A stretch of 64,000 nt of DNA, taken from contig NC_135366.1 in assembly GCF_051622035.1 (NCBI RefSeq), forward strand, positions 997,001 through 1,061,000. Direction: 5' to 3'. The notes below the pieces were generated by a model. The model was not told where the DNA came from, did no database searches, and was given only the letters and a program-made list of their open reading frames with translations. This DNA comes from Arctopsyche grandis. Its lineage: Eukaryota > Arthropoda > Insecta > Trichoptera > Hydropsychidae. Positions 1,477 to 37,797 of this stretch are shown here, in pieces. The translations under genes and the position numbers were made by a program. Position 1 is the first letter of the stretch, and the number at the start of each line of letters is the position of its first letter.

Positions 1477-1496
1477 TATCCACTGCTACACATTTT

Positions 1497-13616: not shown

Positions 13617-13866
13617 GCCTTTTCTTTATCAATCAGAATCCAACAAGTTTATCGTTTGCACTGACTTTTACAAGGCAGTCGTTCGTTTTCAATACGCCTA
13701 CAATTTATTTATAAAAATATGATAAAGAGCACTGATTCCGTACCCGGATAATCGAGGTTGTACTGTTATATAGATTACATTGCATTGATCGAGAAAATAT
13801 ATATTTATTTATTGAACAAAAAAACAACAGACAACAGATGTAGAAATGATTCGGTGATTATATCCT

Positions 13867-13975
13867 AAATGTGAATCGTTAACAGGATAACCGCCGCTAC
13901 GAAAATTACTCGCATGGATCTCCTGTAGCTCGAAAATTCATCGCACAAAAAAATTGCCGTACAGAAAACTGTCCA
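13867..13975 (+). repeat. Left inverted-repeat module of unit A
   Basis: Starts AAATGTGAATCGTTAACAGG, continues ATAACCGCCGC and several GAAAATT/GAAAACT phrases. Its reverse complement, diverged, lies after the gene at 16381-16483. A second inverted copy at about 14060-14110 closes a smaller palindromic element beside it. Confidence 0.7.
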
Positions 13976-14099
13976 CATATTGATCAAAATTGCCCAAATC
14001 TCGTAAAAAAAAAGCATTTGCTGACCAATATTTCAGCAGTTTTCTATAAGGTAATTTTCGAGCAATTTTTGTAGCGGCGGTTATTCTGGTAGAGATTCA

Positions 14100-14306
14100 C
14101 ATTTGAGATGTAGCCCGTTTACCCAAAAATATAGATCAGTAAAGTGGACTTTTCTTGCCAACGGACAAATGCCTGGATTTTCCAGGAGAAAATTGTGTTT
14201 GGCAACACTAATTTTGACATTCAACAATCTAGAAACCCCACTCGAGTCCGTTACCAGCGCCACTTTCGCGTCAGACTGGGAAGACCCTCGACTAGATACG
14301 TCTTAA
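14100..14306 (+). promoter_or_regulatory. Conserved 5' leader/promoter segment of the zinc-finger genes
   Basis: About 200 bp immediately before the first ATG. It is almost unchanged in all four units (equivalents start near 21080, 26265 and 34810). It is retained with the gene and is the likely promoter and 5' UTR. I see no clear TATA box. Confidence 0.4.
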
Positions 14307-14378
14307 ATGTCTACATCTAGGAATCCATTGTCCACTATCCACTCTCCAGGAGTTTGTGCTTCTTCTTCCCAAGTAGCG

Positions 14379-16351
14379 ATGGAGTGCAGACTTTGTCTCT
14401 GCTCTGCTCCAGCAGGATCCTTCGTCTCCATCCACGACGACCCTCATCCACCGCGTTTGGCGCAACGCATTTGGACCTGCTGTCAGCTGCGGGTTAGTCA
14501 CGTTACGCTTGAACCACTGCTATTGTTAATTCGCTACTCCTCGTTATCGTCAATACCTTCCACATTTGCAGGTAAGGAAAGGTGACCATCTGCCAGATAT
14601 GATATGCCTTTCTTGTGTCAGCAATCTGGAATTTTTCGAGAGCTTTCGAAACGCTTGTTTTCGGAATGACACAAAGTCGAGGGTGGAATTAGGCAAGTAT
14701 GTGAAAGTCAAACCGGAAGAGGTTTTGCTGGAAGATTTAATATGGGAAGATGAGTTGGGTGCTGATTGGCCATCCAACATTTCTAGCTCACCAGACGACG
14801 GCGAGGTAAGTAAATCAAGATCTTTAGATTGATTCTTAGAGAAACATTCACTTAATCGAAAGTAAAAATTCATATGTAAAATGACATCTAATCACACTAT
14901 AAATATGTTCACATGTTCAATTGAATAAATTTCGGTTTATTTTTTAGATCCCTGGAAGAAAAAACACTTTGGGAGATAATATGGCAGCAATAATAGATGC
15001 CAACAGACACATTCTAGCGGAAGAATTACCATTTCGAAAAACTTTAGATAAGATGTGCTCAACAAATTCTGAATTGGACCGTAAAACAGATTTCCAATAC
15101 AAATCGTTGACTCGTAAAAACAATCTAGTGACACAGAAAAACTCACCCACTCAAAGAGAGCTGCATGATTGTGACACTTGTTCAAAATCTTTTAACAGTA
15201 AAGATGATCTAAGTGTACACTTGAGGGTTCATAGTGGGGCAAAGCCACATAAATGTGACGTTTGTTTCAAATCATTGCTTTCGAAATCTAAACTCCGTGT
15301 ACACATGGGTATTCATACTGGGTTAAAGTCACACACATGTGACATTTGTTTAAAATCATTCCTTAGAAAAGGTGAACTCAATGTACATATGCGTAGGCAT
15401 ACTGGAGTAAAGCCATACAAATGTGAAATTTGTTTAAAATCATTTCTTAGAATATCACAACTCAATGTACATATGCGTATTCATAATGGAGTAAAGTCAC
15501 ACAAATGTGACATTTGTTTAAAATCATTCCTTAGAAAAGGTGAACTCAATGTACATGTGCGTATGCATCTTGGAGTAAAGCCACATAAATGTGACATTTG
15601 TTTAAAATCATTTCTTAGAAAATCACACCTCAATTCACACATGGAAATTCATACCGGGGTGAAGTCACACAAATGTGACATTTGTTTGAAGTCATTCCTT
15701 AGAAAATCACAACTCAAAGTACATATGGATATTCATACTGGAGTAAAGCCACACAAATGTGACATTTGTTTAAAATCATTCCTTAGAAAACGTGAACTCA
15801 ATTCACATATGGTTACTCATACTGGGGAAAAGTCATACAAATGCGACATATGTTTAAAATCATATTCTCAAAAACAAAGTCTTGTTGCACATATGAGTAT
15901 TCATACTAGAGTAAGGGCACACAAATGTGATATTTGTTTAAAATCATTCCTTAGAAAAAATCTACTCAATTCACATGTGGTTATTCATACTGAGGTAAAG
16001 CCATACAAATGTGACATTTGTTCAAAAACATATTCTCTGAAACGATATCTTAGTGCACATATGGGTATCCATACTGGGGCAAAGCCACACAAATGTTACA
16101 TTTGCTTAAAATCATTCCATAGAAAATCACACATCAATTTTCACATGGTTACTCATACTGGGATAAAACCACACAAATGTGACATTTGTTTAAAATCCTT
16201 CCTTAAAAAAAGAGAACTAAATTCACATATGTTTATTCATACTGGGGTAAGTCCACACAAATGTGACATTTGTTCAAAAATATTTACTGCGAAACGAAAT
16301 CTTAGTGCACATATATATAAAATTCATAATGGGGTAATGTTACAAAAATAG
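14379..16351 (+). CDS. ZAD-C2H2 zinc-finger protein, copy A (14 fingers)
   Basis: Probable nuclear DNA-binding transcription factor. Exons are 14379-14492, 14572-14805 and 14948-16351, all joined in phase 0, giving about 583 residues. Residues 1-75 are a ZAD domain with paired zinc ligands CRLC near the start and CLSC after the loop; ZAD domains dimerise. An acidic linker follows (EEVLLEDLIWEDELGADW). The last exon encodes 14 C2H2 fingers at 28-residue spacing (typical unit HKCDICLKSFLRKGELNVHM) with linkers close to HTGVKPHK. I chose the ATG just before CRLC; an in-frame ATG at 14307 would add 24 residues. Intron 2 is only 142 bp, since it lacks the MITE present in copies B-D. Confidence 0.9.
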
Positions 16352-16380
16352 AAATATTTTACAGGTCTTTTCGTAAAAAA

Positions 16381-16483
16381 AAGTATTTGCGGGCAGTTTT
16401 CTTGCGACCAACTTTCCTGTGCGATCAATTTTCGTGCTACGGGTTATCCACGCGAGCGGCTATCCTGTTAGCGATTCACATTT
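16381..16483 (-). repeat. Right inverted-repeat module of unit A
   Basis: Reads AAAGTATTTGCGGGCAG...GCGACCAACTTTCCTGT...GGTTATCC...GCGATTCACATTT. Its reverse complement aligns with the left module over about 100-130 bases. Confidence 0.7.
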
Positions 16484-16518
16484 GACAAGTAACCCGTTTA
16501 CCGATTTTTTGATACTCG

Positions 16519-18296
16519 TGTAGGCGGGGTAGGAAGTGTTGACCGTATCCCAGCCTAACGAAACACTGTTGTGCTTGTTTTAGGTTGTTTTATTGTTTGC
16601 CTAATCATTGTACAAGTGTATTAGAATTGTGGCGGCTCGCTTATACGACATGGTCGAGTTTGGTTGCCTTCCTGCGAGTGGGGACCAACCCGGCTGGGTT
16701 CGGAGAGCTACTACTCACTCTGTCTTCAGCTGTCATATAATAAACACGTGCATTAACATGCCAGTCGTCTCATTCGTTCATCCTCCATACTGGTGACCCC
16801 CGACATCGAGCCACGCAGCCTCGATCAATTTCAACATGCCGCTCATCCCATGCCGCTCATCCCTGCCTCGCCGAGTCAGGCGGGAGAAGCTACCCGCCGC
16901 GCCCCCATCGCCATCAACACGCGTCGCGGCCCGCGGGTGACAATAAACGAGCAGACACGGCTACCTACCTACCTACCTACCTACCGACGTCCAGCCACAA
17001 CGTCGACGACAGGTGCTTTTAAAAAATGGGGGAGCGAATGAGACGACGATCTTGACAGCTGGATGTGGAGTCATGCGCGATCCACTACACATAGAACGGT
17101 CATCCAGCACCACAAGACATACACCACCTCAGCACCATCATCATCATCATCATCATCATCAAGGCCCCGTCCGTCCCCACGAGCGTCGTCACGCCGAGAC
17201 GGGCGGTAGCGCTACAACACCTCCACGAGCCACAACGACTCACAGTCCAGCTCGGAGTATCATCAACCACATCGATGCCCCTGCCGCCCCCGCCGCCCCA
17301 CCAACCGACATCAGCCTCGGAAGAGCGGCGCCGCCGCAGCATCGCATCGCGCGACCATCGGACCACCCACCGTCCTGCTCGCGACGTCACCGCCCTCGAA
17401 TCTACCGACCATTCAGGGCGGTACACCTATGTACACAGCGGATGACCCACGTCAACATTTTTTTTTCTCCCTACGTAATAATTTTTTCTCTTTGTGTAAC
17501 AACAATTTTTTTTCTTTTGTAAAATTTGTTTCTTTGTAATTTTGGTATCGCTGATGCTGGGGGGGGAGTGATGTGGCGGCTCGCTTATACGACATGGTCG
17601 AGTTTGGTTGCCTTCCTGCGAGTGGGGACCAACCCGGCTGGGTTCGGAGAGCTACTACTCACTCTGTCTTCAGCTGTCATATAATAAACACGTGCATTAA
17701 CATGCCAGTCGTCTCATTCGTTCATCCTCCATAGAATATTTGGGGAAGTTTTCTTGAAGCGGCTATTGACTGTTGACTTGGTGTCGTGATGGCCGCTGGA
17801 TCTGCAATGTGTCGTTGCTCTGGATCCGGCTATGTTCAGAAGGTCTCTGGATGTCGACTGGTCCGCTGCTGTGTGTCGACTCTTGTTGCTGTGGGTCGAC
17901 TGGTCTGCTGCTGTGTGTCGACGCTTGTTGCTGTGGGTCGACTGAAGTTGTTTGGGGTGGACCTCATTTTATATTGTTTTTGGGCATCACGTGACTCGTC
18001 GCAGATGGTGGTTATGCGTGTGCGAGGAATGTGTTTTTGTCGATTAGGGTGGACGTTACTCGAACGTTTGGCGACGTTCCACTCGATTTAGTTTAATGGC
18101 TACAGGTGTTCTTCGACCGGTGTTGTTCCGCTCGACTTGTAGGGGTGGAACTTGCTAGAATGTTTGGCACCGTTCCGCTCGATTTAGTTTAATGGCTGCA
18201 GGTGTTCTTCGACTTCGGGTGACGTCAATGGTTAAGCGTGGGAAATGTATTCTGCGTCGCAATAAATGTCTTGACGATGGTGACGAGATTCCTACA
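16519..18296 (-). mobile_element. Solo LTR fossil (about 0.66 kb net), interrupted by a younger LTR element
   Basis: Ends TGTAGG...CCTACA, flanked by a CTCG duplication (16515-16518, 18297-18300). Units C and D show the uninterrupted site 'gatactc/cattgag', confirming the insertion. A 4-bp duplication suits Ty3/gypsy-type integration. On the minus strand it has a TATA-like AATATAAAATGAGG and GTCGACCCACAGCA repeats, also found in the related LTR at 61585-62392. The element at 16628-17732 is inserted into it. Only the LTR remains. Confidence 0.7.
16628..17732 (+). mobile_element. Compact LTR retrotransposon fossil (TRIM-like) with two 161-bp LTRs
   Basis: LTRs are at 16628-16788 and 17572-17732, beginning TGTGGCGGCTCGC; they appear identical, so the insertion is recent. 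AGAAT is duplicated on both sides. A primer-binding-like TGGTGACCCCCGAC follows the 5' LTR and a polypurine GGGGGGGAG precedes the 3' LTR. The interior of about 780 bp is proline/histidine-rich or simple sequence with no pol, so it is non-autonomous and internally reduced. A solo LTR of the same family lies at 40269-40429. Confidence 0.85.
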
Positions 18297-18485
18297 CTCG
18301 CATTGAGTTGATGCCATTGACACATGCAATACTTGAATGAATCTAAACGTTTTCATGTAACGGTAGTACTGTAATAATCTACACCCCGGTGTCTTTCTTG
18401 TTTATGTATTTTGTTTCTTTTCGTGTGAATTATTTTTTGTTTAAAATTGTTGGCTACAGTCTGATCGCTTATATTTCATCGGGGG

Positions 18486-19976
18486 TGTCCGAGCCAACAA
18501 ACCCACATGGCCGTGTTTTGGGCTCTTACGGGCGCGCACTCATTTTTTTACGAGGCGCGTTCATCTGTCAAAACAGACGCTCGCTATACGCCGGCCGAGA
18601 CGCTCGCCATCCGCCGGCCGAGACGGTACTGGCGTAGCTGGTCTACCTTGCCTGACCAGCTGCAGCCAGCGTACTCATCCACAGCCCCCGCCAGAGAGGG
18701 GCACAGGCGCCGGCAAACTCCCCGGCTCGCCATTCTATTCGTCAATAAACAAGGATAACCCGAGCTGACCTGTCTAATTCCCCACCCCGCCCTGTTCCAG
18801 CACGTGCTCCAGAGCGAGCTGAACACACATAGAGACGACGACACACACACACAGCCACTGGTCACCCAGCATACACACACACATTACAGCTCCTGAAGCT
18901 AACGTTCATGGTCCTTCGAGTCGGGATGATCTACAGCGCTGGACTCTGTCGTCGGCATACCAGGTTGGTCGTCAGCCATTTTGTCTCTCCCGTTATTCCT
19001 TTGTGTTGGCTGTCCGCCATCTTGTAATCCCGCTTCCCTTTTGTTTAACGGCGTGGGTTTCCCCCCCCCCCCCTTTTGTTTCACGGCGCGGGTTTCCCCC
19101 CCGTGATATCGTTTCACCCCTCACAGTTTCTCGAAGTCATGACGACTCAATTGCGACGTCGTCGTGGCGCCCTTCGGGGAAGGCTGACGAAGCTCACGAA
19201 TCTGGTCGACCAATTACCGCCGAGCGTGACCCGACTCGAATATAAGCTCGAGGAGGCGCGCCAGCTGCGTCTCGATTTCTTGGACACGCAGTCCGAGTTA
19301 GAAGCGTTAGAGCTCAAAGAGGCGGAGGAGTCCGCGCTGACATGGGACGAATTTGAGGACGCCTATTTGGCATATACAGATGCAGTGCTGGACAAACTAG
19401 ATGCCGCAAAGAGCATCACCTTGTCGGGAGGAACCTCCCCCCCAAGCGACCTTTTCCCGGTCGATCAAACCGTCCGTCGCACTGTTGACCAACTCGCTAC
19501 TCCCCCAGTGGACCAACCCATTCGTCTCCCGGCACTAGAACTGCCAACATTCGATGGTAAGCTCGAAGATTGGCCCCAGTTCTCCCAACGCTTCCAAGCC
19601 GCAATAGACGGCAGTAAAGTGGATTCAGTCCGCTTCCAATATCTTACTGCCAGTCTTACCGGTGAGGCCCGCAACATTCTCCGCGGCCTCGACTGTGCGG
19701 AAGGGGCCTTCACCACCGCTTGGTCCATTCTCGAGGACCGGTACAACAATAAGAGGTTGTTGGTCCAGAGACACGTCCAGGCATTGCTCAACGCTGAGCC
19801 TGTGGGCCATGACGTTGGTCAAGGGTTGCGGCGGCTGTTGGATGACATCACCATGCATACCCGCACCCTCGGGTCCATGGGCGTCCCCGTCGTCACATGG
19901 GACGACATCCTCGTAAAAATGAGTGCGCGCCCGTAAGAGCCCAAAACACGGCCATGTGGGTTTGTTGGCTCGGACA
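18486..19976 (+). mobile_element. BEL/Pao-type LTR fossil fragment with inverted terminal repeats
   Basis: Begins TGTCCGAGCCAAC and ends GTTGGCTCGGACA. The first about 62-70 bp recur inverted at the right end, and GGGGG is duplicated at both sides (18481-18485, 19977-19981). Unit C has the empty site (catcgggggcaattcag). A probable LTR occupies about 18486-18905, followed by a TGGTCCTTCGAGTCGGG primer-binding-like site. Then comes a gag frame at 19139-19936 with a DUF1759-like region (ELPTFDGKLEDWPQFSQRF). No pol is present; it is a partial, broken copy. Confidence 0.75.
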
Positions 19977-19981
19977 GGGGG

Positions 19982-20470
19982 CAATTCAGTTCATTGCTTT
20001 GAGATAAGATCCATGCACCAGACCTATATTTTCATGTTTTGTACATATGTATATAAAACATTGCTAATTGTTGAATATGAGGAAATTGAGTAATTGTTGA
20101 ATATGAGAAGTGAAAAATATGGAATACTGCAAGTTATATTGTTTTGAGTTGACTTTCCGTTGCTATGACTTTCCATCGCAAAGTCAACATTTAAATGAAA
20201 CGTTATTCCGAATCAAAGCCAGTGATCTCATATACTTATTTCACAACAATAGCCAAGTCTTACGATGGCATAATCGTCGCTCTTGTACAAACATGCAGAA
20301 TGAATCTCTGGCAACGTCCCATTTGACTATTCCAGAAGAAAGAATTCATCGCTTTGAAGCTGAGAAACGAGCTTCTTTGTACACATAATTACTATTGTAA
20401 ACATAAATAAAGGATCCTCTTACTAACACAATCAGTGTTTTCATAGACCTTCCCGCGGTGAATTAAGATT
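19982..20470 (+). repeat. Conserved downstream block of the zinc-finger units, with 92-aa frame
   Basis: Contains a 92-codon frame (20110-20388; MKNMEYCKLYCFELTF...). The block recurs at 23735-24208 and 29210-29695. The unit C frame is intact and nearly identical, but the unit B copy carries a 16-bp deletion that breaks the frame. I recognise no family. It is either a decayed exon or non-coding sequence carried with the unit. Confidence 0.5.
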
Positions 20471-20482
20471 AAACTGTGATTT

Positions 20483-20665
20483 GACATTCGAACTATCAAA
20501 GTAAAATGAACGCAAAAGCGATTGCCAACCTTCTCGGATGCGAGCGTCAGATGAGCTAACAGATGCCCGCGAACAACTCGCGAGGACCACAACCAACGGC
20601 CACGAGGGTTTTTGGCTCGAACATATGTCTAGTCGATAATAATAAAAATTTCTTAAATAAAAAGT
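20483..20665 (+). repeat. 'MNAKAIANLLG' block, unit A copy
   Basis: Encodes MNAKAIANLLGCERQMS then a stop. The unit B copy (25596-25781) is open for 61 residues and the unit C copy (34169 onward) is interrupted. Its 3' side runs into AAAAAGTATTTGCG, the same phrase that follows the zinc-finger stop codons. No family was recognised. Confidence 0.5.
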
Positions 20666-20679
20666 ATTTGCGAAAATTT

Positions 20680-20855
20680 TTGTTTGTGTGACCAGTAATC
20701 ATACGACCAATTTTTAATTTTTGGGTGTGACCAGTTTTCTCGTGACCGATTTTAGGGTGACCCGTTTTAGTACGACGGGTGATCACGTGTGACCGATCTA
20801 GAGCGACCGGTTATCCTGAGACCGGTTCACATTTGACTAGTAATCACTGTACCGA
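20680..20855 (+). repeat. GACCAGTTTT phrase array, end of unit A
   Basis: Degenerate repeats of GTGACCAGTTTTCTC, GTGACCGATTTTAG and ACCGGTTATCC lead into GGTTCACATTTGACTAGT. Reverse-complemented, the array matches the left module's GAAAACTGGTC-type phrases. Arrays at 25775-25990 and 34345-34560 are longer. Confidence 0.6.
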
Positions 20856-21375
20856 CAACAGATGTAGAAATGGTGATTATATCCTAAATGTGAATCGTTA
20901 ACAGGATGACCGCCGCTACGAAAATTACTCGCATTGATCTCCTGTAGCTCGAAAATTCGTCGCACAGGAAAATTGCCGTACAGATAACTGTCCACATATT
21001 GGTCAAAATTGCCCAAATCTCGTAAAAAAAAAGCATTTCCTGACCAATTTTTGAGCGATTTTTGTAGCGGCGGTTATTCTGGTAGAGATTCACATTTGAG
21101 ATGTAGCCCGTTTACCCAATAATACAGATCAGTAAAGTGGACTTTTCTTGCCAACGGACAAATGCCTGGAATTTCCAGGAGAAAATAAATTGTGCTTGGC
21201 AACACTAATTTTGACATTCAACAATCTAGAAACCCCACTCGAGTCCGTCACCAGCGCCACCTTCGCGTCAGACTGGGAAGACCCTCGACTAGATACGTCT
21301 TAAATGTCTACATCTAGGAATCCATTGTCCACTATCCACTCTCCAGGAGTTTGTGCTTCTTCTTCCCAAGTAGCG

Positions 21376-23268
21376 ATGGAGTGCAGACTTTGTCTCTGCT
21401 CTGCTCCAGCAGGGTCCTTCGTCTCCATCCACGACGACCCTCATCCACCGCGTTTGGCGCAACGCATTTGGACCTGCTGTCAGCTGCGGGTTAGTCACGA
21501 TACTCTTGAACCACTGTTATTGTTAATTCGCTACTCCTCGTTATCGTCAACACCTTTCACATTTGCAGGTTAGCAGAGGTGACCATCTGCCAGATATGAT
21601 ATGCCTTTCTTGTGTCAACAATCTGGAATTGTTCGACAGCTTTCGAAACGCTTGTTTTCGGAATGACACAACGTCGAGGGTGAAGTTAGACAAGTATTTG
21701 AAAGTCAAACCGGAAGAGGTTTTGCTGGAAGATTTAATATGGGAAGATGAGTTGGGTGCTGATTGGCCATCCAACATTTCTAGCTCACCAGACGATGGCG
21801 AGGTAAGTAAATATAATTCAAGTTCTTTAGATTGATTCTTAGAGAAACATTCAATTAACTGTTTGCCCGCGGTTGTCTTCTATGGAAGCTTTCCGCGACA
21901 AGTCTGTAGCGCGGCTGTCTTCCATAGAATTTCTGAACTTTGCACGGGATTTTGAGCCTATTTCAACTGGTCAAAATTAGTTTTTTGTGGAACCATACTG
22001 AAACCTCGTTTATGTGTCGTCACGTCTGTTGAAAAATGGCGACCATACGTCTCAATTGTATGAAGAATGATTATTTGACAATTAAGCCAAAAATACGAGA
22101 TATATTATGTATTTTATTGTTTAAAATAATACTTTATGTGTTAATTAAAATATCTGGTTACTAAGTAAATATTAAAATCTGTATTTAAGTATTGAAAAAT
22201 CGATTGCCAAATTCGCGAAAAAGGTGCCGTGTACAGGGCTTGTTCGCTATATTTATTGCCGCGGGCAAAGGGTTAATCGAAATAATAAATTCATATGTAA
22301 AATGACATCTAATCACACTATAAATATGTTCACATGTTAAATTGAATAAATTTCGGTTTATTTTTTAGACCCCTGGAAGAAAAAACACTTTGGGAGATAA
22401 TATGGCAGCAATAATAGATGCCAACAGACACATTCTAGCGGAAGAATTACCATTTCGAAAACCTTTAGATAAGATGTGCTCAACAAATTCTGAATTGGAC
22501 CATAAAACAGATTTCCAATACAAATCGTTTACTCGTAAAAACAATCTAGTGACACAGAAAAACTCACTTACTCAAAGAGAGCTGCATGATTGTGACACTT
22601 GTTCAAAATCTTTTAACAGTAAAGATGATCTAAGTGTACACATGAGGGTTCATAGTGGGGCAAAGCCACATAAATGTGACGTTTGTTTCAAATCATTGCT
22701 TTCGAAATCTGAACTCCGTGTACACATGGGTATTCATACTGGGTTAAAGTCACACACATGTGACATTTGTTTAAAATCATTCCTTAGAAAAGGTGAACTC
22801 AATGTACATATGCGTAGGCATACTGGAGTAAAGCCATACAAATGTGACAATTGTTTAAAATCATTCCTTAGAAAAAATGAACTCAATGTACATATGCGTA
22901 TGCATACTGGAATAAGGCCACACAAATGTGACATTTGTTTAAAATCGTATATTATAAAATCACACCTCAATGCACACATGAATATTCATACCGGGGTGAT
23001 GTCACACAAATGTGACATTTGTTTAAAGTTATTCCTTAAAAAATCACAACTCAAAGTACATATGGATATTCATACTGGAGTAAAGCCACACAAATGTGAC
23101 ATTTGTTTAAAATCATTCCTTAGAAAAGGTGAACTCAATTTACATGTGGTTACTCATACTGGGGTAAGTCCGGCCAAATGTGACATTTGTTCCAAAATAT
23201 TTACTACGAAACGAAATCTTAGTGCACATATATATAATATTCATAATGGGGTAATGTTACAAAAATAG
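21376..23268 (+). CDS. ZAD-C2H2 zinc-finger protein, copy B (8 fingers)
   Basis: Exons are 21376-21489, 21569-21802 and 22369-23268, phase 0 throughout, giving about 415 residues. The ZAD domain and acidic linker are nearly identical to copy C. The last exon holds only 8 fingers: the first three match copy A, later ones match copy C, and the terminal one reads SPAKCDICSKIFTTKRNLSAH. The shortening is a clean loss of whole 84-bp finger units, so the frame stays open. Intron 2 (566 bp) contains a piggyBac-like MITE. An in-frame ATG at 21304 is the alternative start. It probably binds a shorter DNA site than its paralogs. Confidence 0.88.
21855..22276. mobile_element. piggyBac-like MITE (family 2) in intron 2 of copy B
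   Basis: TTAA at both ends with termini CTGTTTGCCCGCGG and GCCGCGGGCAAAGGG. It lacks about 80 internal bases present in the copies at 27022, 35568 and 50972. Copy A has an undisturbed TTAA at the same intron position. Confidence 0.88.
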
Positions 23269-23276
23269 ATTCGATA

Positions 23277-23480
23277 AGTTCCGAATCTTGCCTTATTAAA
23301 CTCGCCAGAAAGATCCAACTCAATTTTAATAATTGCATCTGTGCACATCGAAAGGTTACTCGTCAACTGATGTGCAATCTATCATTCGAGAAAATGAGAA
23401 TTACGTTTCAAACTGCGGTTCTGTTAATCTGTCATTCGTTTGTCTGGCGATTTTAGAGTGGATGCACCAAACCCGAGTAA
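23277..23480 (+). mobile_element. MITE fragment (long-TIR family)
   Basis: TTGCCTTATTAAACTCGCCA through GATGTGCAATCTATCATTCG matches the interior of the element at 62986-63310. It ends ATGCACCAAACCCG. The left terminal repeat is absent. It has replaced the 3' module of unit B. Confidence 0.65.
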
Positions 23481-23498
23481 TAGCGTTCGAACACGCGG

Positions 23499-23522
23499 TA
23501 TTTGATAGATCTATCAAATACT
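23499..23522. repeat. Perfect 24-bp palindrome
   Basis: GTATTTGATAGA followed directly by TCTATCAAATAC, just beyond the MITE fragment. It may be a target or junction hairpin. Confidence 0.6.
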
Positions 23523-24732
23523 GCGGTAGATACCGCTAGTGTTAACGCTACCATTGAGTCGATGCCATTGACACATGCAATACTTGAATGAATCTGAACG
23601 TTTTCATGTAACGGTAGTACTGTAATCATGTACATCCTGGTGTCTTTCTTGTTTATGTATTTTGTTTCTTTTCGTGTGAATTATTTTTTGTTTAAAATTG
23701 TTGGCTACAGCCTGATCGCTTATATTTCATCTGGGACAATTCAGTTCGTTGCTTTGAGATAAGAGCCATGCACCAGACCTATATTTTCATGTTTAATATG
23801 AGTAAATTGAGTAAATTGAGTAATTGTTGAATATGAGAAGTGAAAAATATGGAAAACTGCAAGTTATATTGTTTTGAGTTGACTTTCCATCGCAAAGTCA
23901 ACATTTAAGTGAATCGTTATTCCGAATCAAAGCCAGTGATCTCATATACATATTTCGCAACAATAGCCAAGTCTTACGATGGCATAATCGTCGCTCTTGT
24001 ACAAACATGCAGAATGAATCTCTGGCAACGTCCCATTTGACTATTCCAGAAGAAAGAATTCATCGCTCCGAAGCTCAGAAACGAGCTTCTTTGTACATAT
24101 AATTACTATTGTAACATGTATTGAACATAAATAAAGGATCCTCTTACTAACACAATCAGTGTTTTCATAGACCTTCCCGCGGTGAATTAAGATTAAACTG
24201 TGATTTGTTCTGTGATTTCTCAGGTTCGAAAGATATCGCTAAGGGTTTTGCTGAGCATTTTAAATCTGCATTTGTAGACTCATTCACTCAATCTTCAAAT
24301 AATAAGTTCCAAACAAGTCATTCCTTCATTCTGTCAGTATTTGAATTTAATATCAGTGATATGGAGTATGGGTTCCAGAAGCTGAAACCTAATAGATCTT
24401 TTGGTCCTGACTTTATTCCCGATTTTGTTTTAAAGGGATGCAAGTCCAGTTTGTTATATCCTTTGCTTCATGTCTATAATTTATCACTGAAATCTTCTCT
24501 GTTCCTTGACTCTTGGAAATGCACCAAAGTCACGCCATTTCACAAAAATGACGATAAATCTTTTATTAATAATTACAGACCAGTAGCCATTGTTTCGGCT
24601 CCAGCCAAATTATTCGAAATAATTTTGCAGAGATTACTTTGTAATCATTGCGATCGGTTATCATAAACCAACAGCAATCCAACTATATTGGAAGAAATGA
24701 AATTTTGGGTTCCATCTCGCCTCATTGATTAC

Positions 24733-25147
24733 ACAGCAACAAAAAAAAATACCAGCGCGGAGACTAGCCAATCTTTACGAAGTTTGATCCACTGAATTCG
24801 AATATGGTATTGATTTTTGTTGGTGGGCGATCGTTTACGAGATATGAGCGTTTAAACAAATCCGCGATTTTTACAGTTTTTTGGCTTTTGCGGTCTTTAA
24901 CTCAAAATTTAGGATTGTTACGCTCAAAGTGAGTATTGGAATCAATAGTCAGATATTGGAATCAATAGTCAATAAGCGAGATGGCATATAATCCACCTCA
25001 CAGAGTACAGCGGTCGGATACATGCCATCTCGCTTGCACCTAACATATTACGCGATACAACCATATATACAACGAAAGCATTTAAATTGCAATTACCGCT
25101 TGAGTTAGTACTTTTAGATAAAAAAAAATTGATTTTTTGTTGCTCAG
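24733..25147. mobile_element. TIR element nested in the LINE
   Basis: The ends GCAACAAAAAAAAAT and ATTTTTTGTTGC are inverted. Part of its body (caaaatttaggattgttacg and neighbours) occurs in the opposite orientation at 33485-33725 in unit C. It contains a stem AAGCGAGATGGCAT / ATGCCATCTCGCTT at 24972-25037. Confidence 0.5.
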
Positions 25148-25543: not shown

Positions 25544-25595
25544 TATACTTGTATATTAAAATAAATAAATTTGACATTCGAACTGTCAAAGTGAA

Positions 25596-25781
25596 ATGAA
25601 CGCAAAAGCGATTGCCAACCTTCTCGGATGCGAGCGTCAGATGAGCCAACAGATGCTCGCGAGCTCCTCGCGAAGACCACAACCAACGGCCACGAGGGCT
25701 TTTGGCTCGAACATATGTCTAGTCGATAATAATAAAAATTTCGTAAATAAAAAGTATTTGCGAAAATTTTTGTTTGTGTGA
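25596..25781 (+). other. Unknown 61-aa frame, 'MNAKAIANLLG' block of unit B
   Basis: The intact copy starts MNAKAIANLLGCERQMS and continues through AFGSNICLVDNN to a lysine-rich end. Two other copies carry an early stop, so coding is doubtful. It lies just before the GACCAGTTTT array (25775-25990). Confidence 0.35.
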
Positions 25782-25990
25782 CCAGTTATCATACGACATA
25801 TTTTTAATTTTTGGGTGTGACCAGTTTTCTCATGACCAATTTTAGGTGTGACCAGTTTTCTCGTGACCGATTCTAGGGTGTGACCAGTTTTAGGGTGTGA
25901 CCAATTTTCTCATGACCCGTTTTAGTATGACGGGTGATCACGTGTGACCGATCTAGAGCGACCGGTTCACATTTGACTAGTTATCACTGA
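25775..25990 (+). repeat. GACCAGTTTT phrase array, end of unit B
   Basis: About eight degenerate copies of (G)TGACCAGTTTT(CTC) at irregular 16-25 bp spacing, ending in GACCGGTTCACATTTGACTA. Confidence 0.65.
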
Positions 25991-26542
25991 ACCGACAACA
26001 GATTTAGAAATGATTCGGTGATTATATCCTAAATGTGAATCGTTAACAGGATAACCGCCGCTACGAAAATTACTCGCATGGATCTCCTGTAGCTCGAAAA
26101 TTCATCGCACAAAAAAATTGCCGTACAGAAAACTGTCCACATATTGATCAAAATTGCCCAAATCTCGTAAAAAAAAAGCATTTGCTGACCAATATTTCAG
26201 CAGTTTTCTATAAGGTAATTTTCGAGCAATTTTTGTAGCGGCGGTTATTCTGGTAGAGATTCACATTTGAGATGTAGCCCGTTTACCCAAAAATATAGAT
26301 CAGTAAAGTGGACTTTTCTTGCCAACGGACAAATGCCTGGATTTTCCAGGAGAAAATTGTGTTTGGCAACACTAATTTTGACATTCAACAATCTAGAAAC
26401 CCCACTCGAGTCCGTCACCAGCGCCACTTTCGCGTCAGACTGGGAAGACCCTCGACTAGATACGTCTTAAATGTCTACATCTAGGAATCCATTGTCCACT
26501 ATCCACTCTCCAGGAGTTTGTGCTTCTTCTTCCCAAGTAGCG

Positions 26543-28851
26543 ATGGAGTGCAGACTTTGTCTCTGCTCTGCTCCAGCAGGGTCCTTCGTCTCCATCCACG
26601 ACGACCCTCATCCACAGCGTTTGGCGCAACGCATTTGGACCTGCTGTCAGCTGCGGGTTAGTCACGATACTCTTGAACCACTGTTATTGTTAATTCGCTA
26701 CTCCTCGTTATCGTCAACACCTTTCACATTTGCAGGTTAGGAGAGGTGACCATCTGCCAGATATGATATGCCTTTCTTGTGTCAACAATCTGGAATTGTT
26801 CGACAGCTTTCGAAACGCTTGTTTTCGGAATGACACAACGTCGAGGGTGAAGTTAGACAAGTATTTGAAAGTCAAACCGGAAGAGGTTTTGCTGGAAGAT
26901 TTAATATGGGAAGATGAGTTGGGTGCTGATTGGCCATCCAACATTTCTAGCTCACCAGACGACGGCGAGGTAAGTAAATATAATTCAAGTTCTTTAGATT
27001 GATTCTTAGAGAAACATTCAATTAACTGTTTGCCTGCGGCTGTTTTCTATGGAAGCTTTCCGCGACAAGTCTGTAGCGCAGCTGTCTTCCATAGAATTTC
27101 TGGACTTTGCACGGGATTTTGAGCCTATTTCAACTGTTTTAAGGTTCAAAATTAGTTAAATATATTACTGAGAGTTGAATGCCATTTATTCATTTTGCTT
27201 AAAATGAATATATACCGGTCAAAATTAGTTTTTTGTGGAACCATACTGAAACCTCGTTTATGTGACGTCACGTCTGTTGAACAATGGCGACCATACGTCT
27301 CAATTGTATGAAGAATGATTATTTGACAATTAAGCCAAAAATACGAGATATATTATGTATTTTATTGTTTAAAATAATACTTTCTGTGTTAATTAAAATA
27401 TCAGGTTACTAAGTAAATATTAAAATCTGTATTTAAGGTCGAAAAATCGATTGCCAAATTCGCGAAAAGGTGCCGCGTACAGGGCTTGTTCGCTATATTT
27501 ATTGCCGCGGGCAAAGGGTTAATTGAAATTATAAATTCATATGTAAAAATGACATTTAATCACACTATAAATATGTTCACATGTTAAATTGAATAAATTT
27601 CGGTTTATTTTTTAGACCCCTGGAAGAAAAAACACTTTGGGAGATAATATGGCAGCAATAATAGATGCCAACAGACACATTCTAGCGGAAGAATTACCAT
27701 TTCGAAAACCTTTAGATAAGATGTGCTCAACAAATTCTGAATTGGACCATAAAACAGATTTCCAATACAAATCGTTTACTCGTAAAAACAATCTAGTGAC
27801 ACAGAAAAACTCACTTACTCAAAGAGAGCTGCATGATTGTGACACTTGTTCAAAATCTTTTAACAGTAAAGATGATCTAAGTGTACACATGAGGGCTCAT
27901 AGTGGGGCAAAGCCACATAAATGTGACTTTTGTTTAAAATCATTCCGTAGAAAATCACAACGCATTATACATATGCGTATTCATACTGGAGTAAAGTCAC
28001 ACAAATGTGACATTTGTTTAAAATCATTCTTTAGAAAAGGTGAACTCAATGTACATATGCTTATGCATACTGGAATAAAGCCACACAAATGTGACAATTG
28101 TTTAAAATCATTCCTTAGAAAAAATGAACTCAATGTACATATGCGTATGCATACTGGAATAAGGCCACACAAATGTGACATTTGTTTAAAATCATATCTT
28201 AAAAAATCACACCTCAATGCACACATAAACATTCATACCGGGGTGAAGTCACACAAATGTGACATTTGTTTAAAGTTATTCCTTACAAAATCACAACTCA
28301 AAGTACATATGGATATTCATACTGGAGTAAAGCCACACAAATGTGACATTTGTTTAAAATCATTCTTTAGAAAAGGTGAACTCAATTTACATGTGGTTAC
28401 TCATACTGGGGAAAAGCCATACAAATGCGACATATGTTTAAAATCATATTCCCAGAAGCAAAATCTTGTTACACATATAGGTATTCATACTGGAGTAAAG
28501 CCACACAAATGTGACATTTGTTTAAAATCATTCCTTAGAAAAGTTGAACTCAATTTACATGTGGTTACTCATACTGGGGAAAAGCCATACAAATGCGACA
28601 TATGTTTAAAATCATGTTCTCAGAAAAGAAATCTTGTTACACATATGAGTATTCATACTGGAGTAAGGCCACACAAATGTGACATTTGTATAAAATCATT
28701 CTTTAGAAAACGTGAACTAAATTCACATATGGTTATTCATACTGGGGTAAGTCCACACAAATGTGACATTTGTTCAAAAATATTTACTACGAAACAAAGT
28801 CTTAGTGTACATATATATAATATTCATAATAGGGTAATGTTACAAAAATAG
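26543..28851 (+). CDS. ZAD-C2H2 zinc-finger protein, copy C (12 fingers)
   Basis: Exons are 26543-26656, 26736-26969 and 27616-28851, phase 0, about 527 residues. The ZAD domain has CRLC and CLSC zinc ligands. The last exon encodes 12 C2H2 fingers. Fingers 7-8 and 9-10 form a duplicated pair (GELNLHVVTHTGEKPYKCD then SQK-type; VELNLHVVTHTGEKPYKCD then SQK-type), evidence of recent two-finger duplication. Intron 2 (646 bp) carries a complete family-2 piggyBac-like MITE. The alternative start is ATG 26471. It is followed at 28885-28984 by the inverted repeat module. Confidence 0.9.
27022..27522. mobile_element. piggyBac-like MITE (family 2) in intron 2 of copy C
   Basis: TTAA at both ends and termini CTGTTTGCCTGCGG / GCCGCGGGCAAAGGG, about 501 bp. 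It is close in sequence to those at 35568 and 50972. Confidence 0.88.
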
Positions 28852-29699
28852 AAATATTTTACAGGTCTTTTCGTAAAAAAAAAGTATTTGCGGGCAGTTT
28901 TCTTGCGACCAACTTTCCTGTGCGACCAATTTTCGTGCTACGGGATATCCACGCAAGCGGTTATCCTGTTAGCGATTCACATTTGACAAGTAACCCATTT
29001 ACCGATTTTTTGATACTCCCATTGAGTCGATGCCATTGACACATGCAATACTTGAATGAATCTGAACGTTTTCATGTAACGGTAGTACTGTTATCATCTA
29101 TATCCCGGTGTCTTTCTTGTTTATGTATTTTGTTTCTTTACGTGTGAATTATTTTTTGTTTAAAATTGTTGGCTACAGCCTGATCGCTTATATTTCATCG
29201 GGGGCAATTCAGTTCATTGCTTTGAGATAAGATCCATGCACCAGACCTATATTTTCATGTTTTGTGCATATGTATATAAAACATTGCTAATTGTTGAATA
29301 TGAGGAAATTGAGTAATTGTTGAATATGAGAAGTGAAAAATATGGAATACTGCAAGTTATATTGTTTTGAGTTGACTTTCCGTTGCTATGACTTTCCATC
29401 GCAAAGTCAACATTTAAATGAAACGTTATTCCGAATCAAAGCCAGTGATCTCATATACTTATTTCACAACAATAGCCAAGTCTTACGATGGAATAATCGT
29501 CGCTCTTGTACAAACATGCAGAATGAATCTCTGGCAACGTCCCATTTGACTATTCCAGAAGAAAGAATTCATCGCTCCGAAGCTCAGAAACGAGCTTCTT
29601 TGTACATATAATTACTATTGTAACATGTATTGAACATAAATAAAGGATCCTCTTACTAACACAATCAGTGTTTTCATAGACCTTCCCGCGGTGAATTAA

Positions 29700-32500: not shown

Positions 32501-32503
32501 GTA

Positions 32504-32804
32504 TCATAATTCTTCTACGCCACTTAATTCTCCATCACTTGAAGAATCCATATATTCGCTATCAGAATATTCTACTTTTATAATGTCAGTGAAATTGTCC
32601 GTTAAATTATCGAGTTTTGGTTCCAGTTCAATAAATTTTTCTTCATGTTTTTTCACATGTCTCCAAACGTCTCTGAATGTATCAATAGTGATTGACTCTG
32701 CTCTGATTCACTATACGATGCATGAAATAGTTGAAAACATTATACACAATTTCGCGAGATTGTCTCGTTAGTGTTTTCCCAGATCCAATTTTATTACAAA
32801 GCAT
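32504..32804 (-). pseudogene. DDE transposase relic, N- and C-terminal ends fused by deletion
   Basis: On the minus strand one frame starts MLCNKIGSGKTLTRQSREIV and continues YNVFNYF, like the helix-turn-helix start of a transposase family common in insects. A second frame gives WRHVKKHEEKFIELEPKL and the acidic end YSDSEYMDSSSDGELSG, like its C-terminus. The catalytic core is missing and the two parts are in different frames, so it cannot be active. The exact superfamily is not certain. Confidence 0.5.
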
Positions 32805-33214
32805 TTTATTATCATATATCCACTAATTCTAATGAACTAACTCCAATTAACCAATTAGCAAACAATATAAGAACGCGTTACGTCAGTTTGTGGGGGTTGA
32901 TCGGTGACTGACCAGTGAAACTGGAAAAAATCACCCTGTAGTGCACACTTGATCACTGAGCAAAAATCACCGAGCAATACAAAAAATAATTGTTGTTTCT
33001 GTCATGCTCGGAAAGTGGGTGCGTATGAAAGGGACCAACTGATTGTCCTAGAAAACAGATACAAAAAATCTTATTCATATCTTCACGGATACAATATACG
33101 TGTTTGTATTGGTACGTGCCAGCTTTCGCTGCACGAGCTATAAGCCTTGTCTCAAAAATAATATTTTAAGCTTGCAATATTTATAGCATTAAGACTTTTA
33201 AATTTTCTTTCCAA

Positions 33215-34140
33215 CTCGAAAAAAATTTTTGTACAAAAAGCCTGGTTACCCTAGTCAAAAAATTATCATATTTTTAATTTTGCAATAATTTATATCACAG
33301 AGATGATGGTAATATTTTTATATGTTTTCTAGCTTTAAAAAAAATGTTATATAAAAAGTTTGGTTACCCTACTCCAAAAAACTATTTTATTTTAAATTTT
33401 ATTTTATAAAAAATTTGCCAAATAAATGAAAAATAGCACGGAAAAAAAATTCATAAAAAAAAATATATTTTTGACATTTAAAATTCGCTAGACAATTAAT
33501 TCAAGCGGTAATTGCAATTTACTCACTTTGAGCGTAACAATCCTAAATTTTGAGTTAAAGACCGCAAAAGCCAAAAAACTGTAAAAATCGCGGATTTTTT
33601 TAAACGATCATATCTCGTAAACGATCGCCCACCAACAAAAATCAATATCATATTCGAATTCAGTGGGTCAAACTTAGTTAAGATTGGTTAGTCTCCGATC
33701 TGGTTACTCAAAAACGTGATTTTATGTTGCTCAGTGTTATCGATTGCGTCCATTGTTCCAAACAATTTAAGCAAGAACTTATGTTTTTCACCAATCACTC
33801 GAGTCTTACGCTGCTTGAATTTGGTCAGCAATCACATTGATATTTTCAATATTTCACCAGATAATCTATCCGTATTTTTACTTTTAATTCAATTTAAACT
33901 ATTTAAATATGGTTTTTTTTGTTTATTATTTTCAATTTGTAATTTGTATTTTTTTTTTAATTCTCAATTTTATAATTTTTATGTACAATTTTTTAAATGT
34001 TTTATTTTATTTGTTTATCTATTATTGTCGTTTTATTTTTTCTTATGTTTTTGATCTTTTATGTATTGTCTGGCCACAGTGTCATATTGGGGTGACCTGT
34101 TAAGACACTGTGGTACACTTGTATATTAAAATAAATAAAT
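33215..34140 (+). repeat. Inverted 106-bp units, then LINE 3' end
   Basis: GGTTACCCTAGTC phrases at about 33240 and 33362 are inverted copies of the tandem unit. From about 33720 the sequence follows the LINE 3' UTR of unit B (GTGTTATCGATTGCGTCCAT...) to the hairpin at 34074-34113 and AAAATAAATAAATTT. The nested TIR element is present in the opposite orientation (33485-33725). Confidence 0.6.
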
Positions 34141-34344
34141 TTGACATTCGAACTATCAAAGTAAAATGAACGCTAAAGCGATTGCCAACCTTCTCGGATG
34201 CGAGCGTCAGATGAGCTAACAGATGCCCGCGAGCTCCTCGCGAAGACCACAACCAACGGCCACGAGGGCTTTTGGCTGGAACATATGTCTAGTCGATAAT
34301 AATAAAAATTTCGTAAATAAAAAGTATTTGCGAAAATTTTTGTT

Positions 34345-34560
34345 TGTGTGACCAGTTATCATACGACCAATTTTTAATTTTTGGGTGGGACCAGTTTTAT
34401 CATGACCAATTTTAGGTGTGACCAGTTTTCTCGTGACCGATTCTAGGGTGTGACCAGTTTTAGGGTGTGACCAATTTTCTCATGACCCGTTTTAGTATGA
34501 CGGGTGATCACGTGTGACCGATCTAGAGCGACCGGTTCACATTTGACTAGTATAATCACT
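34345..34560 (+). repeat. GACCAGTTTT phrase array, end of unit C
   Basis: Nearly the same array as 25775-25990, with eight degenerate copies of TGACCRRTTTT, preceded by the 'MNAKAIANLLG' block (34142-34330, interrupted). Confidence 0.65.
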
Positions 34561-35088
34561 GAACCGACAACAGATTTAGAAATGATTCGGTGATTATATC
34601 CTAAATGTGAATCGTTAACAGGATAACCGCCGCTACGAAAATTACTCGCATGGATCTCCTATAGCTCGAAAATTCGTCGCACAGAAAAATTGCCGTACAG
34701 AAAACTGTCCACATATTGGTCAAAATTGCCCAAATCTCGTAAAAAAAAACTATTTCCTGACCAATTTTTGAGCGATTTTTGTAGCGGCGGTTATTCTGGT
34801 AGAGATTCACATTTGAGATGTAGCCCGTTTACCCAATAATACAGATCAGTAAAGTGGACTTTTCTTGCCAACGGACAAATGCCTGGATTTTCCAGGAGAA
34901 AATTGTGTTTGGCAACACTAATTTTGACATTCAACAATCTAGAAACCCCACTCGAGTCCGTCACCAGCGCCACTTTCGCGTCAGACTGGGAAGACCCTCG
35001 ACTAGATACGTCTTAAATGTCTACATCTAGGAATCCATTGTCCACTATCCACTCTCCAGGAGTTTGTGCTTCTTCTTCCCAAGTAGCG

Positions 35089-37480
35089 ATGGAGTGCAGA
35101 CTTTGTCTCTGCTCTGCTCCAGCGGGGTCCTTCGTCTCCATCCACGACGACCCTCATCCACCGCGTTTGGCGCAACGCATTTGGACCTGCTGTCAGCTGC
35201 GGGTTAGTCACGATACTCTTGAACCACTGTTATTGTTAATTCGCTACTCCTCGTTATCGTCAACACCTTTCACATTTGCAGGTTAGGAGAGGTGACCATC
35301 TGCCAGATATGATATGCCTTTCTTGTGTCAACAATCTGGAGTTGTTCGACAGCTTTCGGAACGCTTGCATTCAGAATGACGCAACGTCTAGGGTGGAATT
35401 AGACGAGTATTTGAAAATCAAGCCGGAGGAAGTTTTGCTGGAAGATTTAATATGGGAAGATGAGTTGGGTGCTGATTGGCCATCCAACATTTCTAGCTCA
35501 CCAGACGACGGCGAGGTAAGTAAATATAATTCAAGTTCTTTAGATTGATTCTTAGAGAAACATTCAATTAACTGTTTGCCCGCGGCTGTCTTCTATGGAA
35601 GCTTTCCGCGACAAGTCTGTAGCGCGGCTGTCTTCCATAGAATTTCTGAACTTTGCACGGGATTTTGAGCCTATTTCAACTGTTTTAAGGTTCAGAATTG
35701 GTTAAATATATTACTGAGAGTTGAATGCCATCTATTCAATTTGCTCAAAATGAATATATACCAGTCAAAATTAGTTTTTTGTGGAACCATACTGAAACCT
35801 CGTTTATGTGACGTCACGTCTGTTGAACAATGGCGACCATACGTCTCAATTGTGTGAAGAATGATTATTTGACAATTAAGCCAAAAATACGAGATATATT
35901 ATGTATTTTATTATTTAAAATAATACTTTGTGATAATTAACATATCTGGTTACTTGAGTAAATATTAAAATCTGTATTTAAGGTCGAAAAATCGATTGCC
36001 AAATTCGAGAAAAAGGTGCCGCGTACAGGGCTTGTTCGCTATATTCATTGCCGCGGGCAAAGGGTTAATCGAAATTATAAATTCATATGTAAAATAACAT
36101 CTAATCACACTATAAATATGTTCACATGTTAAACTGAATAACTTTCGGTTTATTTTTTAGACCCCTGGAAGAAAAAACACTTTGGGAGATAATATCGCAG
36201 CATTAATAGATGCCAACAGACACATTCTAGCGGAAGAATTACCATTTCGAAAAGCTTTAGATAAGATGTGCTCAACAAATTCTGAATTGGACCATAAAAC
36301 AGATTTCCAATACAAATCGTTTACTCGTAAAAACAATCTAGTGACACAGAAAAACTCACTTACTCAAAGAGAGCTGCATGATTGTGACACTTGTTCAAAA
36401 TCTTTTAACAGTAAAGATGATCTAAGTGTACACATGAGGGCTCATAGTGGGGCAAAGCCACATAAATGTGACTTTTGTTTAAAATCATTCCATAGAAAAT
36501 CACAACGCAATATACATATGCGTATTCATACTGGAGTAAAGTCACACAAATGTGACATTTGTTTAAAATCATTCTTTAGAAAAGGTGAACTCAATGTACA
36601 TATGCGTATGCATACTGGAATAAAGCCACACAAATGTGACATTTGTTTAAAATCATATCTTAGAAAATCACACCTCAATTCACACATGGAAATTCATACT
36701 GGGGGGAAGTCACACAAATGTGACATTTGTTTAAAGTTATTCCTTACAAAATCACAACTCAAAGTACATATGCATATTCATACTGGAGTAAAGCCACACA
36801 AATGTGACATTTGTTTAAAATCATTCCTTAGAATACGTGAACTCAATTCACATATGGTTACTCATACTGGGGAAAAGCCATACAAATGCGACATATGTTT
36901 AAAATCATGTTCTCAGAAAAAAAATCTTGTTACACATATGAGTATTCATACTGGAGTAAGGCCACACAAATGTGACATTTGTTTAAAATCATTCCTTAGA
37001 AAAAATCTACTTAATTCACATATGGCTATTCATACTGGGGTAAAGCCATACAAATGTAACATTTGTTTAGAATCATTCCTTAGAAAAAATCTACTCAATT
37101 CACATATGGCTATTCATACTGGGGTAAAGCCATACAAATGTGACATTTGTTCAAAAACATATTCTCTGAAACGATATCTTAGTGCACATATGGCTATCCA
37201 TACTGGGGCAAAGCCACACAAATGTGACATTTGTTTAAAATCATTCCATAGAAAATCATACATGAATTTTCACATGGTTACTCATACTGGGATAAAACCA
37301 CACAAATGTGACATTTGTTTAAAATCATTCTGTAGAAAAAGTGGACTAAATTCACATATGGTTATTCATACTGGGGTAAGTCCACACAAATGTGACATTT
37401 GTTCAAAAAATTTTACTGCGAAAATAAAGCTTAGTTCACATATATATAATATTCATAATGTGGTAAAGTCACAAAAATAG
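35089..37480 (+). CDS. ZAD-C2H2 zinc-finger protein, copy D (13 fingers)
   Basis: Exons are 35089-35202, 35282-35515 and 36161-37480, phase 0, about 555 residues. The ZAD domain has CRLC and CLSC. Exon 2 is the most diverged of the four (DEYLKIKPEEVLLEDL). The last exon encodes 13 fingers. Fingers 8 and 9 are near-identical (FLRKNLLNSHMAIH), a recent single-finger duplication. The last three resemble copy A's, so copies A and D share a finger block (SLKRYLSAHM, HRKS) missing from B and C. Intron 2 (645 bp) has the family-2 MITE. The alternative start is ATG 35017. Confidence 0.9.
35568..36068. mobile_element. piggyBac-like MITE (family 2) in intron 2 of copy D
   Basis: TTAA at both ends, termini CTGTTTGCCCGCGG / GCCGCGGGCAAAGGG, 501 bp. 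The insertion site is the same as in copies B and C, so it was there before they duplicated. Confidence 0.88.
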
Positions 37481-37797
37481 AAATATTTTACAGGTCTTTT
37501 CGTAAAAAAAAAAGGAATTTGCGGGCAGTTTGCTTGCGACCAACTTTCCTGTGCGACCAATTTTCGTGCTACGGGATATCCACGCGAGTGGTTATCCTGT
37601 TAGCGATTCACATTTGACAAGTAACTTACCGATTTTTTGATATTCGCATTGAGTCGATGCCATTACTTGAATGAATCCAAAAGTTTTCATGTTATGGTAG
37701 TACTGTAATCATTTACATCCCGGTGTCTTTCTTGTTTATGTATTTTGTTTCTTTTCATGTGAATTATTTTTTGTTTAAAATTGTTGGCACTGTAAAA

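Follow-up and report, generated by a model that had tools for sequence, protein, structure and literature searches.

A cluster of four ZAD-C2H2 genes accompanied by short repeat modules

The 64,000-nucleotide stretch of the Arctopsyche grandis genome analysed here (the window; contig NC_135366.1, positions 997,001 to 1,061,000) carries four three-exon genes of the ZAD-C2H2 type, designated A to D, with open frames and GT-AG splice sites throughout. Each encodes an N-terminal zf-AD domain followed by an array of C2H2 fingers (Table 1); the domain match in gene A (PF07776, Pfam scan) has an E-value of 4.3e-12. Beside every gene lies a self-complementary module, L, the right end of which is found 256-260 bp upstream of the start codon. 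Genes A, C and D have in addition a module R, with its outer end 150-152 bp past the stop codon, and a third module, R'', is situated just upstream of L in B, C and D. Gene B has L and lacks R, with about 280 bp of other sequence following its stop codon. Part of this replacement (23269-23550) is 86% like 63114-63310, and the shared downstream sequence resumes right after it.

Inverted left and right modules around genes A, C and D had been reported in a first-pass annotation of this DNA, and they are indeed present, at 13867-13980/16483-16385 (A), 26031-26144/28984-28886 (C) and 34603-34716/37615-37516 (D), with local scores of 47, 47 and 51 that exceed those of all 500 dinucleotide shuffles made for each pair (largest 23). 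The same annotation described short phrases repeated every 17 bp or so within the modules. The pattern GACCRRTTTTC, derived from the modules themselves before counting, has 19 matches in the window when as many as 3 mismatches are allowed, where 0.45 would be expected; 12 lie in R'', where they are mostly 14-17 bp apart, 6 in R, 1 elsewhere and none in L. The phrases are thus real, and their regular spacing holds for R'', but L has none.

Table 1. Genes, repeat modules and related elements, with positions counted from the first letter of the window.
Feature	Position	Strand	Exons	Remarks
Gene A	14379..16351	+	14379-14492, 14572-14805, 14948-16351	ZAD and 14 C2H2 fingers
Gene B	21376..23268	+	21376-21489, 21569-21802, 22369-23268	ZAD and 8 fingers
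Gene C	26543..28851	+	26543-26656, 26736-26969, 27616-28851	ZAD and 12 fingers
Gene D	35089..37480	+	35089-35202, 35282-35515, 36161-37480	ZAD and 13 fingers
L of gene A	13848..14123	.		Complete, 276 bp, palindromic, MITE-like (MITE, miniature inverted-repeat transposable element); ends GATTCGGTGATTAT / GGTAAACGGGCTAC
L of gene B	20869..21116	.		Internally deleted; left end worn, start approximate
L of gene C	26012..26287	.		100% identical to L of A at aligned bases
L of gene D	34584..34833	.		250 bp; internal deletion common to B
R of gene A	16385..16502	+		Right end only, 3' of stop codon
R of gene C	28886..29003	+		
R of gene D	37516..37630	+		Four bases lost near outer end
R'' of gene B	20641..20853	+		Upstream of gene; 14-17-bp phrase array; right end of longer dispersed element
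R'' of gene C	25731..25993	+		Upstream of gene
R'' of gene D	34301..34565	+		Upstream of gene
X-Y block	20170..20640	+		Adjoins R'' in A-B spacer; dispersed repeat
Intron MITE, gene B	~21859-22276			Same element as in C
Intron MITE, gene C	27022..27522	.		Intron 2; TTAA target
Intron MITE, gene D	35568-36068			Same element as in C
Intron MITE, free-standing copy	50972..51479	-		
E1	911..1477	.		Separate element with terminal inverted repeats; at each end 12 of the 14 outer bases as in family termini
E2	12441..12644	.		Related to E1; 11 and 10 of the 14 outer bases as in family termini, chance level

L, R and R'' as dispersed elements

The L module forms a complete element by itself, with its inverted partner inside it, and its two halves are self-complementary at 65% over 130 gap-free columns in the copy of gene A. 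Relatives of the modules were sought in 475.7 Mb of genome sequence, with 40 of 632 candidates scored for L, 40 of 333 for R, 40 of 1600 for R'' and 40 of 696 for the X-Y block adjoining R''; the scored candidates gave 109, 50, 57 and 46 matches, respectively. Those of L are spread over 12 of the 13 large contigs, with none among the scored matches for contig C8, and many are full-length, spanning about 13850-14123 of the window copy. Matches to X-Y abut matches to R'' on contigs C3, C5 and C8, an arrangement that makes R'' the right end of a dispersed element of greater length.

An alignment of 20 L copies has sharp edges, with one end resembling GGTTCRGTGATTAC and the other GGTAAACGGGTTAC. 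This asymmetry is seen in most of the 18 copies with both ends measurable; it is reversed in two (L018, L019), and one (L006) differs. When the better of the 8- and 9-bp comparisons was taken for each of these 18 copies, the flanks had a mean duplication identity of 0.836, versus 0.424 for shuffled partners (maximum 0.563 in 2,000), and a duplication was lacking in two only (L006, L011). Half of the 12 terminus pairs found in other fetched loci are bordered by exact duplications of 8 or 9 bp (L022, L026 twice, L029, L035 and L043). The exact GGTTCRGTGATTAC terminus occurs 2,726 times genome-wide (1,393 + 1,333), as against once (1 + 0) for the reversed pattern. The modules thus behave as the annotation had proposed, as a DNA-transposon-like family with terminal inverted repeats (TIRs) and subterminal repeat arrays. 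The sequence AGATGTAG, which flanks L in the window, was considered as an 8-bp target duplication and rejected, its right copy aligning by eye inside the module in R and R''.

Another locus, L024 (C9:22.90-22.91 Mb), has R-type ends at 2635-2807 and 8040-8212, 5,405 bp apart. Their shared match pattern and identity suggest another segmental duplication carrying the element.

A probable tandem array that carried its elements along

Homology between the four units extends well outside the modules. On the upstream side it joins genes B, C and D (from 20479, 25569 and 34139), and on the downstream side all four units (18296-18485 with 19977-20466, 23552-24207, 29015-29699 and 37644-37788); in A, upstream homology stops about 20 bp before L. 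Tandem segmental duplication, which the annotation had offered as the alternative to a mobile unit, is in keeping with this passage of homology through the modules and beyond. A further element within the genes helps to order events. In B, C and D, intron 2 contains a MITE bordered by TTAA on both sides, and intron 2 of A is the corresponding empty site with a single TTAA, which marks the element as piggyBac-like by target site only. Since B, C and D are occupied and A is empty, A appears to have branched first, and the TTAA element provides a clean internal marker that orders insertions relative to gene duplications. The closest pair of units varies along the sequence: the L copies of A and C are identical at aligned bases, and B and C are closest in the 5' flank, exons 1-2 and early exon 3. 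Such a mosaic would be explained by unequal exchange or gene conversion among the four units.

The locus very probably represents a four-copy tandem segmental array in which nonautonomous elements of Mutator/Foldback-like type had landed beforehand and were then copied passively with the gene. In a first step, L would have inserted some 256 bp ahead of the start codon of the ancestral gene, presumably by cut-and-paste movement with a Mutator-type transposase binding the subterminal phrases, and an R-type end would have come to lie just 3' of the stop codon before amplification. In B, C and D an R''-type end is situated farther upstream. Tandem duplication would then have carried these elements along with the gene. 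Tandem ZAD-ZNF (zinc finger) clusters in Drosophila are attributed to segmental duplication, with strong copy-number turnover, in the account of PMC7655104; the present array resembles the clusters described there, but differs in that Mutator/Foldback-like elements flank its copies.

Several observations weigh against this scenario. Six of the 12 terminus pairs found elsewhere lack an exact duplication. In the window itself L has no clean target duplication (three copies tested, best 5/7), so that the evidence for its insertion comes from copies elsewhere and from the empty sites. No left partner of R or R'' was found here. The nine loci fetched of the 60 with a Mutator-like element (MULE) transposase match (see below) yielded no transposase with family ends. 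Gene D lacks the downstream X2-Y-R'' block predicted by a simple tandem model. Finally, the homology of A to B, C and D ends at the R'' terminus, and the heptamer ACAACAG occurs twice in A at this point; this left edge could equally reflect a footprint of excision, a difference in insertion or a breakpoint where the element ends, and a transposition or excision event, or an element-end breakpoint, may have taken part in the duplications.

This last coincidence is the main argument for supposing that element ends served as the duplication breakpoints, through recombination between dispersed copies or aberrant transposition. We consider this rather unlikely: the homology among B, C and D reaches several hundred bases beyond R'' on its upstream side, which makes R'' internal to their units, and X-Y-R'' is itself a dispersed repeat, so that A may simply lack the block or have lost it.

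The ZAD gene as possible cargo

The first-pass annotation had favoured a mobile family that captured a host ZAD gene between its ends. The left half of L, the supposed partner of R, is not its closest relative: R is nearer to the right half of L (gap-free identity 0.75) than to the left half (0.64), and the two halves of L are 0.65 identical to each other. No 8-9-bp duplication brackets the module-gene-module segments of A, C and D, in which only 1-2 bases of 8, and 1 of 9, agree between the flanks; the host gene bracketed by a target duplication that characterizes a Pack-MULE is thus not seen in these three.

Loci elsewhere in the genome were examined as well. Among the 21 loci fetched by ZAD similarity (5 + 16; 40 of 729 candidates scored in that search), none has L in place. 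In four of them (L042, L043, L045 and L050) homology to the window gene starts at 26287-26289, the right edge of L, and it likewise starts there in L031, a locus picked by its R''; L043 has at the same site a 119-bp R''-type element with an exact 8-bp duplication. In the remaining 17 loci homology starts farther in, which makes them less informative on L. Finger arrays were included in five of the 21 loci, the piece of L044 stopping inside the array, and no R was found on the 3' side in the four ZAD loci covered there, nor in L031. Within 10 kb of the 149 listed ZAD matches (a partial list) lie none of 36 L copies and one of 35 R copies. No module-ZAD-module cassette at an unlinked locus turned up among the ZAD loci examined. 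The annotation had held that confinement of ZAD copies to this one array, with modules elsewhere never flanking a gene, would speak for plain duplication; this is borne out in spirit only, in that such cassettes are missing from the loci examined, while ZAD genes do exist outside the array.

By these comparisons the ZAD gene is not the cargo of a mobile unit, and the inverted repeats are separate small elements beside an ancestral gene. A Pack-MULE-like transposon that moved the gene is scarcely credible, even though two inverted ends tightly flank the coding sequence in three of four copies and host-gene-like sequence is reported in PMC5225508 for about 20% of nonautonomous elements derived from the mosquito element Muta1, given that L is complete alone, that R is nearer to the right than to the left half of L, that the cassettes lack matching flanks, that homology runs on outside the modules and that none of the 21 other ZAD loci examined has L in place. 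For these four copies the capture reading is already contradicted by the sequence, which removes a tempting but wrong case of transposon gene capture.

Assignment of the element family

On structural grounds the family looks like a nonautonomous member of the Mutator/Foldback-like superfamily. Target site duplications of 8-9 bp, within the 8-10-bp range of such elements, accompany L copies elsewhere, those in the window not being clean; TIRs are long (>100 bp) with internal tandem repeats, present in R'' and absent from L; and the terminal motifs, of GGT type, are asymmetric, as in Tm1. In the description of Tm1, a Mutator/Foldback element of root-knot nematodes (PMC3169594), asymmetric motifs, TIR repeats of about 14 bp in variable number, mostly 9-bp duplications and MITE-like members are given, all of which have counterparts in L, R and R''. 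The sequences and the host phylum are different, however, and some Tm1 elements are described as containing a predicted transposase and a transcript, unlike the present case where the ZAD genes lie outside the elements. Muta1 of Aedes aegypti is presented in PMC5225508 as having a 145-bp TIR with nine 12-bp repeats separated by 3-4-bp spacers, target duplications of 8 or 9 bp, derivatives that vary in repeat number, and a preference for genic regions. The duplication size and the long TIR of short subterminal repeats are similar here, but the terminal sequence is another one, the ends are asymmetric in place of the palindromic terminal motif described for Muta1, and Muta1, unlike the L/R/R'' family, has a known transposase.

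As the annotation had noted, no transposase is visible; none was seen for the family in the window (open reading frames of at least 120 amino acids listed; 7 frames compared with Pfam). Genome-wide, the MULE domain PF10551 has 60 matches (all 81 candidates scored). Among the nine of these loci that were fetched, none has the family ends apart from a single weak match (E 0.0027) at L064. Another, L070, contains a 3180-bp element (630-3809 of the locus, C11:1652429-1655608) with the PF10551 match inside an open frame of 691 amino acids, an internally repetitive TIR, termini GGTTGTGG...CCACAACC and an exact 9-bp duplication, TTTAAAATA. It resembles the module family in its GGTTGTGG ends, repetitive TIR and 9-bp duplication, but its TIR is unrelated beyond GGTT and gives no model match to the module, and it is not the partner of the family.

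Merlin elements have GG-initial termini and 8-9-bp duplications, and on both counts the family would also fit Merlin or another superfamily with duplications of this size; the Merlin-type domain PF12762 has 41 matches in the genome (all 108 candidates scored). Such an assignment is nevertheless quite improbable, as the published features of Muta1 and Tm1 considered above include both the long TIRs with internal repeats and the asymmetric termini, and the MULE at L070 of this genome has GGTTGTGG ends and a repetitive TIR. The four PF12762 loci fetched, which do not include the strongest matches, contain a short palindromic repeat without the family ends.

Pattern scans of a prokaryotic and a viral contig collection, both uninformative on insects, gave no match in the former and one contig in the latter (L001), the only model match of which (E 5e-4 over 60 bases) was taken as chance. 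Papers found in a literature search contained no description of the L/R/R'' family in their titles or the beginnings of their abstracts. An apparently abundant Mutator/Foldback-like family is described here.

Association of R'' with ZAD genes

The list of ZAD matches used for the comparisons below comprises 150 scored out of 989 first-look candidates, all above the cut-off; it is partial, and counts exons and not genes. At this level the ZAD family of A. grandis is probably larger than that of D. melanogaster, for which 91 ZAD-ZNF genes are given in PMC7655104.

In a proximity test, 38 R'' positions (the window's own dropped, one kept per locus) were compared with 149 ZAD matches, using 500 shifts of 0.2-1 Mb as the null. 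The nearest ZAD match is at most 2 kb away for 4 of the R'' positions, at most 10 kb for 7 and at most 100 kb for 15, where 0.12, 0.47 and 3.42 are expected, and none of the 500 shifts reached the observed values. None of the 36 L copies is near a ZAD match at 2 or 100 kb either. For R the counts are 0, 1 and 3 of 35 versus 0.02, 0.09 and 0.78 expected at 2, 10 and 100 kb (P 0.086 at 10 kb, 0.034 at 100 kb), a possible weak excess. The excess for R'' may be inflated by inheritance, because the R'' query is itself a ZAD-linked copy. A less biased test was based on 100 exact termini on contig C1 up to 19.37 Mb: two of the six ZAD exons listed there lie no more than 1.5 kb from such a terminus, versus 0.29 under local shifts (P 0.027), and this excess fades with distance (P 0.09 at 3 kb, P 0.19 at 10 kb). 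Of the 21 upstream regions chosen by ZAD similarity, three contain a clear family copy and one a weak copy; the MULE loci (46.8 kb) and the PF12762 loci (9.9 kb) have no match below E 1e-3. Listed ZAD matches and R'' copies also have distal chromosome regions in common, with the outer 15% at each chromosome end holding 60% of the 149 ZAD matches, 63% of R'', 8% of L and 20% of R. A genic insertion preference, as reported for Muta1, may explain part of the R'' association.

A second ZAD-C2H2 array is found on C5 (33.12-33.14 Mb; L038 and L039), with X, Y and R'' spacer blocks in the order of the window. Its spacers are mostly 89-93% like those of the window and its gene parts about 66-73%, a likeness that may reflect independent insertion, conversion or constraint.

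The R''-ZAD-ZNF association is in any case testable, and it is tempting to speculate on a function. The R'' subfamily, with its GTGACC[AG][AG]TTTTC array, might be attracted to, or retained in, the DNA upstream of ZAD-ZNF genes in unlinked clusters, with the array as a putative promoter-proximal site for ZAD-ZNF proteins, an idea that we regard as very doubtful. ZAD-ZNF genes are discussed in PMC7655104 as what may be the insect equivalent of KRAB zinc fingers, which silence transposons, so that, if the idea were true, a transposon would have become part of the regulation of its own putative repressors. That the arrays are cis-regulatory sites under selection, perhaps bound by ZAD-ZNF proteins, is similarly suggested by the clustering of R'' with ZAD matches and by R'' relatives at two loci on C1 and at others on C5 and C8, the ends of which are about 97-600 bp from the ZAD sequence that follows. 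The distance is about 115 bp between an X-Y-R'' block and ZAD-exon-1-like sequence on C8, and about 97 bp between an R''-type palindrome and the ZAD match after it on C1. Selection of this kind is highly improbable, with 23 of the 38 R'' matches more than 100 kb from any ZAD match on the partial list, a query taken from a ZAD-linked copy, and no family copy in the roughly 1.5 kb upstream in 17 of the 21 ZAD-chosen loci.

Other features of the window

Related ends without a zinc-finger gene had been noted in the annotation at 911-1476 and 12425-12645 and correspond to E1 and E2 (Table 1). In the reversed window, used as a control for the 14-base termini, 12 places have at least 11 matching bases and one has at least 12, and therefore only the E1 pair stands out. 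Beyond the outer ends, shuffles reach the score of E1 and E2 with the left half of L in 56 and 225 of 500 cases, respectively. Both were rejected as full family members, their likeness being confined to the outer ends and that of E2 no better than chance; the earlier observation stands for the outer 14 bases of E1, not for E2 or for longer stretches.

The A-B spacer contains 162-bp direct repeats (16628-16789 and 17572-17733) that are 100% identical, with an inverted third copy at 40268-40431 (97.5%). They likely represent a short LTR-type (long terminal repeat) element in the spacer and a solo copy, a primer-binding-like sequence being recognizable by eye after the first copy. A reading frame with a DUF1759 match (BEL/Pao-type gag; 19076-19936, Pfam scan) lies in the same spacer. 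Elsewhere in the window, an uninterrupted frame of 555 amino acids at 3315-4982 encodes Rft1 (PF04506), and another of 2629 amino acids at 42827-50716, of coiled-coil appearance by eye, includes six 357-bp repeats (46899-48983) that are 88-95% identical to the reference copy.

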